Positions 10,376-12,787 of a DNA stretch of 64,000 nucleotides are shown here, piece after piece; positions within the stretch are counted from its first letter, which is position 1, and each line of letters starts with the position of its first letter. Source of the DNA: an uncultured Mucilaginibacter sp. (lineage in GTDB: Bacteria > Bacteroidota > Bacteroidia > Sphingobacteriales > Sphingobacteriaceae); assembly GCA_903891475.1 (NCBI GenBank), contig CAITEP010000021.1, positions 1 to 64,000 on the forward strand, written 5' to 3'. Below the pieces are notes generated by a model that was not told the origin of the DNA, ran no database searches, and saw only the letters and a program-made list of their open reading frames with translations. Made by a program: the position numbers and the translations under genes.

Positions 10376-10648
10376 TTATTTTTTAATCCAGTTTTGCAGT
10401 TCGTGATTATTCACCTTTCGTCTGCAGGAGTTAATTTGCGCTTCATTTACTTGTACCAGTTTACCATCTTGGGTTAGCATGGTAATGATTTTATTTTCCG
10501 GAGATTCGGAATTTGAGTTTTTTATTTTTGAGAAGGGTAATTTAACAGAAGCCGCCACTGCCGCCAGCACCGAAAATATGCCGATGTTCCAAATGAATTT
10601 CCTTCGGGAGGGCAGATTTCCTGAAGGTATTTTATCATTATTATTCAT
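10376..10648 (-). CDS. Small Tat-signal protein, paralogue of the ferredoxin N-terminus without Fe-S cysteines
   Basis: A 90-aa protein with a twin-arginine-like signal (SRRKFIWNIGIF plus hydrophobic run). The mature part, IITMLTQDGKLVQVNEAQI, aligns with VKLLSVDGEVIEVDEAFL in the adjacent ferredoxin protein. It has one cysteine (SCRRK) and no cluster motif. First gene of the NrfD unit. A CRP/FNR-type palindrome lies 76-91 bp upstream of its start. It may be an assembly or targeting partner of the ferredoxin subunit, which is inference. The reading frame is intact and its ATG is preceded by an A/T-rich leader typical of the phylum. Confidence 0.65.
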   Translation of the reverse strand: MNNNDKIPSGNLPSRRKFIWNIGIFSVLAAVAASVKLPFSKIKNSNSESPENKIITMLTQDGKLVQVNEAQINSCRRKVNNHELQNWIKK

Positions 10649-10723
10649 AATTTTTTATCGTTTGCTTGGGTATGAAATTAGGGTTAATTAAACTTTTAAA
10701 AGATGATGCCTATCGGCTAATGA

Positions 10724-10739
10724 TGTGATAATCATCACT
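10724..10739. promoter_or_regulatory. CRP/FNR-family operator candidate
   Basis: TGTGA-TAATCA-TCACT. The inner arms GTGAT (10725-10729) and ATCAC (10734-10738) are perfectly symmetrical around a 4-bp spacer. This fits both the CRP pattern TGTGA-N6-TCACA and the FNR/DNR pattern TTGAT-N4-ATCAA. Placed just upstream of the Tat/ferredoxin/NrfD unit, it suggests control by oxygen, nitric oxide or a cyclic nucleotide. Confidence 0.55.
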
Positions 10740-10860
10740 AAAAGGATAACATTTATTCGGCTGAAATGTTTACATTCAAAAGAAAATACTTTTAAGAATA
10801 GTTACCGGGTAAATCAGTTTTAAAGTATTTTCCAGAAACAACGAAATAGCACCTAAAACA

Positions 10861-11251
10861 AGTAATGTTCAGTAGGGACATCGCTTGGGTAGAAACAACA
10901 ATTGGTGTACATCAGGGTGATTGCCAATAAAATATTCCATTGGATTAACAACAAAGCATATTAAACCAGCAATACCCCGTAGGGGGCATCGTGATGGTAG
11001 AAACGTAAAGGAGATTGTTTCTAAATATTCTAATCGGTCAACAAAATAGCATATTTAGCAAGCAATGCCCCATAGGGGCATCGTGTGGGTAGAAACAATT
11101 ATTGGTGTATATCAAGATGATTGCCAATAAAATATTCTATTGGATTAACAACAAAGCATATTAAACAAGCAATGCCCCGTAGGGGCATCGTGTGGGTAGA
11201 AAAACAAATCAACAAGCCCCATGCGTTCCATCGGAACGCTGTGTGGGTTCG
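10861..11251 (+). repeat. Five hairpin-plus-tail elements (variable stem, conserved tgtgggtagaaa tail)
   Basis: Elements lie at about 10861-10896, 10971-11004, 11061-11096, 11167-11202 and 11221-11251. Each has a short stem-loop followed by a shared tail. Copies 3 and 4 have stem ATGCCCC/GGGGCAT and tail cgtgtgggtagaaa. Copy 5 has stem GCGTTCC/GGAACGC and tail tgtgtgggttcga. Copy 1 is degenerate (ATGTtC/gGACAT). The stem bases change together while the tail stays, which argues for a structured RNA or a DNA cruciform. Similar elements occur widely between genes in this phylum as far as I recall; their function is unknown to me. Confidence 0.75.
10897..11180 (+). repeat. Direct repeat of ~85 bp embedding the hairpin elements
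   Basis: 10897-10980 and 11095-11180 are nearly identical (shared words include tgattgccaataaaatatt and tggattaacaacaaagcat). A more diverged third version occupies about 11030-11066. The hairpin elements are therefore being duplicated together with their spacer. Confidence 0.8.
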
Positions 11252-11347: not shown

Positions 11348-11376
11348 CAAAAAAAAGCCTGAACTCGTCAGGCCTT
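11348..11376 (-). terminator. Terminator of the cytochrome/DUF5777 unit
   Basis: On the minus strand AAGGCCTGA-cgagt-TCAGGCTT is followed by eight T. It sits 19-47 bp beyond the stop codon of the cytochrome c gene. It separates the heme-protein unit (14600 to 11395) from the NrfD unit. Confidence 0.8.
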
Positions 11377-11394: not shown

Positions 11395-11802
11395 TTACTT
11401 TTTCAAAGTGCGAATAAATACTACCAAATTCCAGATATCTTCTGATTCAGGAATTTTTTTCTTGAAGCTTGGCATATCATCCCTGCCTTCGGCAATTTTA
11501 TAATAAATGGAACCGTCGGATTGTGATTGTAAATCGGCTTTCGACATATCTTGCGGTGTTGTTTTTAATTGAGCCGCTTTTGAGCCATCACCCAATCCTT
11601 TTTTACCGTGACACGATGCGCAATGCAAGTTCCATAAGGCTTTACCTGCCGCTATCGATTCGCCATTCGATTTTACCGGATTGGCCATTTTAGCATTTTT
11701 TTCGGGTACAGGCCATGGTTTTGGTTGTTGGATGCTGGTAAAAGCAAAGCTCATGATGCTCAGCGCTAATACGGCTCCAAATAGTGTTAGTTTTCTTTTC
11801 AT
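11395..11802 (-). CDS. Periplasmic class I cytochrome c
   Basis: A 135-aa protein starting at MKRKLTLFGAVL. A longer frame extends into the neighbouring gene, but the internal start gives a proper signal peptide (cleavage near SFAFTS) and removes the overlap. One c-type heme site, CASCHG, occurs at about residue 61, with a distal DDMPSFKKKIP segment supplying the probable axial Met. The C-terminal helix is IWNLVVFIRTLKK, typical of mono-heme cytochrome c. It is the last gene of a four-gene minus-strand unit with DUF5777 and two heme-type lipoproteins, and is probably a soluble electron shuttle between them and the membrane. Confidence 0.85.
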   Translation of the reverse strand: MKRKLTLFGAVLALSIMSFAFTSIQQPKPWPVPEKNAKMANPVKSNGESIAAGKALWNLHCASCHGKKGLGDGSKAAQLKTTPQDMSKADLQSQSDGSIYYKIAEGRDDMPSFKKKIPESEDIWNLVVFIRTLKK

Positions 11803-11863
11803 TGTATGTATTGTTTTTAGTTGATATGAGCTATAAGCAATTTTTATTGTTTTTTGTTTTGAA

Positions 11864-12787
11864 TTAAAAGTTCCACAGCCTCGAAATATTAAAGCCAACC
11901 AAAAATTCTCTCTTTTTGTAGTCGTTTTGGTTGAATACATTATTTATTTGCGGCATTAATGAACTGTAGTTACCAAAGAATACTTCAAAATCGTGACCAC
12001 TGGTACGCATTTCAATACCTAAACTTAAGTTTGGATGCGGGTTATTGGCCGGGTTTTGTGTTAGCGGCTGATCATAGTTCGCGATAACTGAAAACCCATC
12101 AGAAACCTGAAACTTACCGGATGCGGAGATGGAGAAGTTATCATTTTTGAGGATTGGCTTCGGATTACCATCCGCATCCAAATAACCCAACAAATCATTA
12201 AAATGCGATACACTCGGACTCACCTGTAAGGATACCTTATCGCTAAACTTACGGGCGATGATGATTTGATAAAAATAGCTAAACCTATCGGCAGTGGTTA
12301 CAAATACGGTTGTGGCATCCTTTTTACGGGTATCCATTACCGCGTTACCAAAAAAGGTAACACTTACCGGCATCGAATTGCTTTTGGTTTGTTTCAATAG
12401 CGCGTATTTCAGGTTCCAGTCAACCTGCATGTTTTCGTTAGTGGCGTCAAAGCCAAGCTGCAAGTTGGTTATAGGGGTGTAGCTGAACCCTAACTTCATG
12501 TTGGCGCCTGCAAAAATTCCGAACAAATCAGAAAAGCCATTGTTTACGGTTCCAAACCGGTGTTGAATATCAAATTCAAAAGTTCCCTTTATGGGCACCA
12601 TTACGGTTTGGTTATCAATTATGTAATTACCATCAAAGGTATTTTTTACATACGATTTCTTTTTTACCATCGGTGTTTGGGTGCTATCTTGCGCCATCAC
12701 CCCGTTTAGGGCAAAGCAGCAAATTAGCAGCAAGCACACCTTTGCCAAACCCGGCATGTATTGTGAATATTTTCTACGTGTTTTCAT
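11864..12787 (-). CDS. DUF5777-type outer-membrane beta-barrel protein
   Basis: A 307-aa protein with a signal peptide (CLLLICCFALNGVMAQ), a GTFEFDIQHRFG segment and many amphipathic beta strands ending in an aromatic residue (GFNISRLWNF), as expected for an outer-membrane barrel. The sequence style matches DUF5777, a Bacteroidota family often encoded beside cytochromes and YceI-like or ethylbenzene-dehydrogenase-like proteins. It starts 9 bp after the c-type lipoprotein gene. I infer an outer-membrane pore or platform for the heme lipoproteins. Confidence 0.75.
   Translation of the reverse strand: MKTRRKYSQYMPGLAKVCLLLICCFALNGVMAQDSTQTPMVKKKSYVKNTFDGNYIIDNQTVMVPIKGTFEFDIQHRFGTVNNGFSDLFGIFAGANMKLGFSYTPITNLQLGFDATNENMQVDWNLKYALLKQTKSNSMPVSVTFFGNAVMDTRKKDATTVFVTTADRFSYFYQIIIARKFSDKVSLQVSPSVSHFNDLLGYLDADGNPKPILKNDNFSISASGKFQVSDGFSVIANYDQPLTQNPANNPHPNLSLGIEMRTSGHDFEVFFGNYSSLMPQINNVFNQNDYKKREFLVGFNISRLWNF

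Follow-up and report, generated by a model that had tools for sequence, protein, structure and literature searches.

A hairpin array in Mucilaginibacter as a probable REP-like element family of subclass 1.2 transposases

The intergenic array of short hairpins described here, from an uncultured Mucilaginibacter sp., is, with a probability that we put at about three in four, a dispersed copy of a REP-like element family belonging to a Y1 transposase (HuH, single tyrosine) of TnpA subclass 1.2. It lies in the window, i.e. the whole stretch of 64,000 nucleotides that was analysed (positions 1 to 64,000 of contig CAITEP010000021.1, assembly GCA_903891475.1). The elements are structured and fixed in their spacing (GTAG stands exactly 12 nt after the apical GG of the hairpin, hereafter the ruler), their stems exhibit compensatory pairing, they cluster at the transposase gene, co-occur and co-diverge with it, and they are absent from five orthologous sites. 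The repeat is real, structured and mobile-looking; it is REP-like in its placement and probably in its action. By analogy with known systems, the hairpin element is probably recognized and spread by the single-strand-DNA transposase of subclass 1.2, and the best reading of the elements is that of REP-like single-strand substrates whose GTAG lies on the other side of the hairpin than in classical REPs. Because the tetranucleotide is on this other side, they are not REPs by the published search rule.

The array in the window and the family across the genome

Five hairpins with tails had been reported in this place by the first-pass annotation, and the sequence bears them out at 10865-11245 as four 'A' elements, composed of a hairpin and a tail of the type ...GGTAGAAA, and one 'B' hairpin (Table 1). 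The stems it had spelled out, ATGCCCC/GGGGCAT in two copies and GCGTTCC/GGAACGC in one, are indeed perfect, while the other two copies (A1 and A2) are imperfect. Its statement that these stems precede the same tail holds for the two ATGCCCC copies, and A1 and A2 also keep GGTAGAAA, but the GCGTTCC copy diverges from the four after the common TGTGGGT, with TCGACGAT in place of AGAAA, and represents the B type. Counted from the first base of the 3' arm, the GTAG of A1-A4 starts 14 nt further on, and B begins 23 nt past the GTAG of A4. A loose pattern with up to 3 mismatches gives 5 matches in the window against 3.55 expected, a count that is uninformative as such; four of the five, however, have 0 mismatches and these four fall within 330 bp, which is more than chance.

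Table 1. Coordinates of the elements and associated features in the window
Feature	Position	Strand	Description
Extra segment	10785..11348		about 560 bp, contains the whole array; left border +/- about 25 bp; borders set by eye from the alignment
Direct repeat	10839..11185 (10839-10985 / 11039-11185)	+	147 bp, 85% identical, spacing 200
A element 1	10865..10895	+	imperfect hairpin ATGTTC AGTA GGGACAT with a T.G position; tail CGCTTGGGTAGAAA; GTAG at 10889-10892
A element 2	10972..11003	+	hairpin with one A.C mismatch and an extra G; tail CGTGATGGTAGAAA; GTAG at 10997-11000
A element 3	11065..11095	+	perfect 7-bp hairpin ATGCCCC ATA GGGGCAT (11065-11081); tail CGTGTGGGTAGAAA; GTAG at 11089-11092
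A element 4	11172..11202	+	perfect 7-bp hairpin ATGCCCC GTA GGGGCAT (11172-11188); tail CGTGTGGGTAGAAA; GTAG at 11196-11199
B element	11223..11245	+	perfect 7-bp hairpin GCGTTCC ATC GGAACGC (11223-11239); tail TGTGTG, GTAG absent
Terminator-like hairpin and T-run	11349..11376	-	3' of the cytochrome c-like gene 11395-11940 (-)

The array is located between a gene at 11395-11940 (-), which we take to be cytochrome c-like from its sequence, and a 90-codon gene at 10376-10648 (-). In five congeners (G215, G202, G219, G237 and G209) the order of the surrounding genes is identical, and the extra segment is missing from the orthologous intergenic region in all five, the gap being 746 bp here versus about 165-185 bp there (by hand from the coordinates); the alignment contains no A element in any of the five orthologous gaps. 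A hairpin with a T-run similar to the terminator-like one is found at the same place in the five congeners, and the extra DNA begins directly after it (both by eye). Given that the A elements and the segment are absent from five orthologous gaps, the array was gained in this lineage or, less likely, lost in all five congeners. At the left border of the segment (10782-10832) there is an imperfect 25-nt inverted repeat with a 1-nt loop and 76% complementarity, which does not resemble either element type. A TGAT...ATCA palindrome at about 10715-10745, upstream of the 90-codon gene, aligns with similar sites in the five congeners (by eye); in its form it resembles an operator of the CRP/FNR type.

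In the whole genome (3.96 Mb in 52 contigs) the A-type pattern with up to 3 mismatches has 38 matches versus 2 for a reversed control, and some of those with 3 mismatches look like chance. Fifteen of the matches lie on both sides of a Y1_Tnp gene on another contig (G000:C11:90564-90908), with an array downstream of it that has a period of about 47 bp. About 16 further matches, on C16, C43, C37, in the window and at single sites, are away from any of the three transposase genes of this genome, and the array on C16 is built of 157-bp units carrying both A and B. Altogether, hairpin and tail occur on nine contigs (C8, C11, C15, C16, C21, C30, C37, C39 and C43), and the seven arrays that were fetched, C11 and the window apart, all lie between ORFs according to a simple ORF mask; the family is thus, as REPs are, a short hairpin repeated in the intergenic DNA of the genome.

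The 147-bp direct repeat in the window is a local tandem expansion and the array grew partly by local duplication; since part of the array is this repeat, its copies are not all independent. It could be argued that nothing else is involved, i.e. that a chance hairpin was spread by tandem or local duplication (recombination) without any specific enzyme, and the 200-bp spacing of the direct repeat, the 157-bp units on C16 and the period on C11 all agree with this. Duplication is valid for copy number within arrays, but as a full explanation it is contradicted by the spread of hairpin and tail over nine contigs and by the presence of other stems with an unchanged ruler at TnpA genes of many genera, and we regard it as hardly credible, the least probable of the alternatives considered here.

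Transposases of subclass 1.2 and the hairpins around their genes

The first-pass annotation had recommended a search for a transposase of the TnpA-REP type. A search with PF01797 revealed three Y1 genes (on C11, C4 and C37). The products of all three exhibit DH[IM]H, WQEG and Y-I-x-NQ-xx-HH, and as these motifs match the signature given by Quentin et al. 2018 (DHuH, WQ, Y...Q..HH and a length of about 150 aa), the proteins are assigned on sequence grounds to TnpA subclass 1.2 of that classification. They score 82, 88 and 67 bits with the NCBIfam IS200/IS605 model (cut-off 55) and 30-37 bits with the REP_Tyr_transpos model (cut-off 80), and are accordingly labelled IS200/IS605 rather than REP transposases, which counts against the REP-like reading. 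Matches to the class-2 REP transposase model, both below the cut-off, were obtained for two other genes, G000:C30:62395-62838, with an internal stop, and G000:C40:52315-52746; two Y1 classes probably coexist in this genome.

Among the matches listed, the closest named relative of the C11 protein is from Mucilaginibacter, and carriage on plasmids is rare, the C11 protein having a match at E <= 1e-20 in only 2 of 72,556 plasmid records. An AlphaFold model of the transposase, built from 34 sequences (pLDDT 91), has the ISDra2 and IS608 TnpA as its best folds (E 3e-9, TM 0.58), and the E. coli TnpAREP in complex with a REP hairpin (4er8) matches it with E 8e-6 and TM 0.60. The 34 proteins selected for the alignment all have H55, H57, W95, Q96, Y115, Q119, H122 and H123. 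In a broader set of 78 proteins, namely the 80 surveyed loci described below minus 5 with internal stops plus the three own proteins, P[DN]H[IVLMF]H is present in 72, WQ.G in 77 and Y[IV]..Q..HH in 74, and Y[IV]..NP in none.

The gene on C4 (L035, G000:C4:78000-82500) is flanked by long repeat units with the stem TTTTGACCC/GGGTCAAAA, the tail CCTTTGTAGAAAA and further hairpins. The stem in the flanks of this gene is different and the ruler is unchanged (GGGTCAAAACCTTTGTAG; 6 elements at L252), and these repeats are a second family with the identical ruler in one genome. The gene on C37 (L036, G000:C37:13000-17500) is flanked by the hairpins CGACCC..GGGTCG and AATCCC..GGGATT, for which inspection by eye found no exact GTAG at the ruler position; this counts against the REP-like reading.

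To look beyond one genome we surveyed the best 80 of at least 531 relatives, from at least 593 stretches obtained by a scan of genome contigs; in the titles of these 80 loci, Bacteroidota and related groups, among them Balneolaceae, are named. CC-loop-GG hairpins with a stem of at least 6 bp number 301 in 59.2 kb of non-coding DNA up to 1.2 kb from the gene (5.08/kb) and 23 in 80.0 kb more than 2 kb away (0.29/kb), i.e. they are 17-fold denser near the gene; low-GC hairpins were left out of one other hairpin count only. Clustering next to particular genes, which the first-pass annotation had wanted to see examined, has thus been found, and as in a REPtron it is around the cognate Y1 transposase gene. 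Where GTAG occurs within 36 nt after the GG, it stands at exactly 12 nt in 143 of 209 occurrences near the gene and in 6 of 14 far from it. At least one ruler element (stem >=5, within 1.5 kb) is present at 66 of the 80 loci, with 178 elements in total, and a stricter count (stem >=6, within 1.2 kb) gives 52/80; 14 loci have none even at stem >=5, which counts against the REP-like reading. Beyond the letters used for selection, the tail is conserved at +11 (T, 0.89) and +13 (G, 0.91; both weighted by locus). Of 568 hairpins around the 80 subclass 1.2 genes, just 9 have the classical arrangement, GTAG or GTGG at the 5' foot, versus 142 with the 3' ruler; this rarity disposes of a classical 5'-GTAG REP.

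The ruler was also sought in control samples, which overlap in a few loci, our own among them. It is present at 17/29 other subclass 1.2 loci of the family and at none of 30 class-2 RAYT loci (0 of 22 with NP, 0 of 7 without motif, 0 of 1 other). Sorted by motif, it occurs in the family sample at 15/26 Q..HH loci and 3/4 without a readable motif; in the phylum sample at 13/27 Q..HH loci, 2/2 without a readable motif and 0/1 other; and in the sample drawn with the IS200 model at 5/19 Q..HH loci, 0/5 with Q and without HH, and 0/6 without motif, the control for subclass 1.1 being small. The lower rates of 13/27 and 5/19 count against the REP-like reading, and, judged from the rates by motif, the ruler characterizes some members of subclass 1.2 and not the subclass as a whole.

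Gene and repeat also go together between genomes. When the pattern was counted with two versions of its stem across the family (201 genomes), at least 2 matches were found in 20/45 genomes with a TnpA match at E <= 1e-50 (19/44 without our own), in 4/26 with a medium match, kept out of both compared groups, and in 5/130 without a match better than about 1e-20, of which 9 have weaker ones; the strong group differs from the group without at 7.5e-10 (Fisher). The loci and genomes are related, which makes this and the other p values optimistic. The 25 of 45 strong-TnpA genomes with fewer than 2 matches count against the REP-like reading, and so do the clearest exceptions lacking a strong gene match, G186 and G161. 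G186, an assembly of 290 contigs, has 14 pattern matches and a TnpA match of E 4e-4 only, possibly due to a lost gene, an assembly gap or another mobilizer; G161 has 5 pattern matches and no TnpA match. Protein distance correlates with tail distance in 62 of the 66 ruler loci, 4 having been left out (Mantel r 0.62, permutation maximum 0.20), and this correlation may partly mirror host phylogeny. In the phylum, matches to the subclass 1.2 profile at E <= 1e-30, counted by profile score and not by motif, were found in 123 of 296 sampled genomes.

Pairing, orientation and the A/B architecture

The pairing was tested on copies chosen by the 3' arm and tail alone (GG-N9-T-N-GGTAG), and not by pairing. 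This pattern occurs 194 times near the gene, 26 times far from it and once in the gene itself, versus 6 near and 21 far for the reversed pattern. A stem of at least 5 bp is formed by 157 of the 194 near copies, versus 25% on average, and 32% at most, when the 5' arms were exchanged among loci in 200 shuffles, and at stem pairs 2-5, counting the apical pair as 0, T-A, C-G, G-C and A-T exchange for each other. The selection on structure that had been read from a few stems of the window is thereby supported on a broad set. Among copies with at least 5/6 pairs, 3 GT and 7 AC of 668 cells were counted, i.e. wobble pairs are not in excess on either strand, which is as expected for DNA.

Compensatory changes in the stem and a conserved single-stranded tail would also suit an RNA, and the first-pass annotation had accordingly offered a small RNA family as one of three readings, next to a chromosome-organizing signal and the end of a transposon recognized by a hairpin-specific (IS200/REP-type) transposase. 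The elements would then be small RNAs or stabilizers of mRNA 3' ends, with the clustering at TnpA being secondary, and the position of the array, intergenic and downstream of a terminator-like hairpin, could be cited in support. However, a search of the window at gathering score returned 0 Rfam families and, together with the lack of wobble excess, this leaves the small-RNA reading unsupported; furthermore, placement follows the transposase gene, the density of the hairpins depending on the distance to it, copies occur in both orientations on each side of it, and the ruler is absent at the 30 class-2 RAYT loci. Such an RNA function is very improbable, and the transposon-end reading is the favoured one of the three, the copies being crowded around subclass 1.2 TnpA genes.

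Within 45 nt after an A element, 107 hairpins were found on the same strand (38 loci), comprising 19 of A and 88 of non-A type, and 95 of the 107 gaps between A and the next hairpin measure 19-27 nt. The 88 define the B type, with T at +8 (0.80), G at +10 (0.80), T at +11 (0.94) and G at +12 (0.63, locus-weighted) and little conservation beyond +12. Of 92 nearest A elements within 800 bp, 78 have their tail facing the gene (p 6e-12), and where A elements flank the gene on both sides (26 loci), those of both sides point inward at 20.

The arrangement around the gene bears on another explanation: a conventional IS200/IS605 insertion sequence, or MITE-like derivatives of one, would travel as a whole with its left and right ends, and the hairpins would be those ends. 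Ends of IS200/IS605 elements comprise a hairpin with a short tetranucleotide at a fixed distance (PMC8266576). The elements described here share this organization, IS608 and ISDra2 (subclass 1.1) are the nearest solved folds of the protein, and all three proteins pass the cut-off of the IS200/IS605 model while remaining below that of the REP model; GTAG 3' of the hairpin might be likened to the cleavage site of a right end, or CTAC 5' of the hairpin to that of a left end, and the A-B arrays might be remnants. On the other hand, an insertion sequence of this kind would be present as several nearly identical gene copies whose left and right ends differ, which is not what was found: the C11 protein shares 47% identity with the C4 protein and 46% with that of C37, too little for the genes to be recent copies; the flanks are inverted copies instead of an asymmetric left/right pair; about 16 pattern matches are gene-less copies away from all three genes; and IS200-type loci without HH have no ruler (0/5). 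Ends of a conventional insertion sequence are therefore an unlikely explanation, if the least unlikely of the alternatives, and the elements are preferably read as REP-like.

Relation to known systems and proposed mode of action

The likeness to REPs and REPtrons (TnpAREP, RAYT; E. coli, Stenotrophomonas, Marinomonas) concerns short GTAG hairpins that are intergenic, surround a Y1 gene and form inverted pairs. Unlike there, the protein has Y...Q..HH (class 1) and not Y...NP (class 2), and a second element type, B, lacks GTAG. Moreover, the automatic REP search of Quentin et al. 2018 (PMC6006769) required GTAG or GTGG 0-2 nt 5' of the stem, whereas the elements found here have it 3', 12 nt from the apical GG, and would not be picked up by that rule. 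With subclass 1.2 as published the proteins share DH[IV]H, WQ, the YIKNQKEHH-type motif, a length of about 150 aa, few divergent copies per genome and occurrence in Bacteroidetes. Table 1 of the same paper gives REP 'no' for subclass 1.2, whose members are described there as generally without IS200 secondary structures; unlike this, most of the 80 best-matching genes (of at least 531) are flanked by hairpins, and the trait of having no REPs nearby does not apply to the 66 of 80 loci with a ruler, at rates that are lower elsewhere.

Hairpins beside Y1 genes of Bacteroidetes are not new as such, because the same paper (PMC6006769) reports them at class-2 genes of subclasses 2.4 and 2.6 ('atypical' for 2.6), with copies elsewhere in the genome; those proteins, unlike the ones analysed here, have Y...NP, and the 30 class-2 RAYT-like loci of the family, counted as one group, have no ruler. 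The palindromic repeats with CGTC or GTAG tags described by Di Nocera et al. 2013 are similar in being tagged palindromes with tails and in clusters, but a passage of that paper on phyla names Bacteroidetes for CGTC repeats only, and not among the GTAG phyla. In a paper on Chryseobacterium (PMC11194056), the passage that mentions 'RayT' transposases does not mention REPs alongside. Among the open-access papers listed, neither titles nor the opening lines of abstracts announce REPs for subclass 1.2.

In summary, unit A is a hairpin, mostly of 5-7 bp, with a CC-loop-GG apex, GTAG exactly 12 nt after the GG and then an A-rich run, and unit B a similar hairpin, usually 19-27 nt beyond A, with a T-N-G-T-G tail and no GTAG; the surroundings of the gene read A-B-gene-B'-A', with the nearest A tails mostly pointing inward from both sides. 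In the IS200/IS605 and TnpAREP systems, the hairpin is bound on single-stranded DNA and a 5' tetranucleotide guides the choice of the cut, and for the Marinomonas TnpAREP an altered GTAG leads to an altered cut (PMC8266576). By extension from IS608, ISDra2 and the E. coli TnpAREP, the transposase would bind the hairpin on single-stranded DNA, the tail motifs would guide the choice of the cut, and the DNA would be joined through the tyrosine Y115, by which hairpins would be copied or moved; it is from this analogy that we infer cleavage and mobility of the elements. By the same token, the subclass 1.2 enzyme may read hairpin apex, tail and GTAG with one ruler. Concerning the strand, GTAG may act as a guide or be cut at the 3' side of the GTAG strand, or CTAC, which is 5' of the hairpin on the other strand, may be the left cut site. 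Since no conserved 5' guide tetranucleotide is found on the GTAG strand, with no base above 0.47 from -9 to -17, the CTAC left-site reading, or GTAG acting from the 3' side, is mildly favoured.

We consider it rather probable, with less confidence than we have in the reading of the array itself, that subclass 1.2 transposases have REPtrons of their own, in which GTAG lies 3' of the hairpin at a constant distance from its apex and the unit has two parts, A and B. If true, this recognition geometry (3' GTAG, measured from the apex, A/B unit) is one that has not been described for REPs in the open-access literature searched. The finding supplies a probable substrate for a widespread transposase subclass to which the reference classification assigns none, and it accounts for a type of intergenic repeat in Bacteroidota. 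The presence of the REP letters GTAG on the other side of the hairpin, at an exact spacing, offers a direct test of how HuH enzymes gauge the distance between hairpin and cut. The finding is also relevant to the origin of REP-type systems from IS200-like transposases, and would, if true, reveal a further, class-1 route by which such transposases were domesticated into a hairpin-spreading system.
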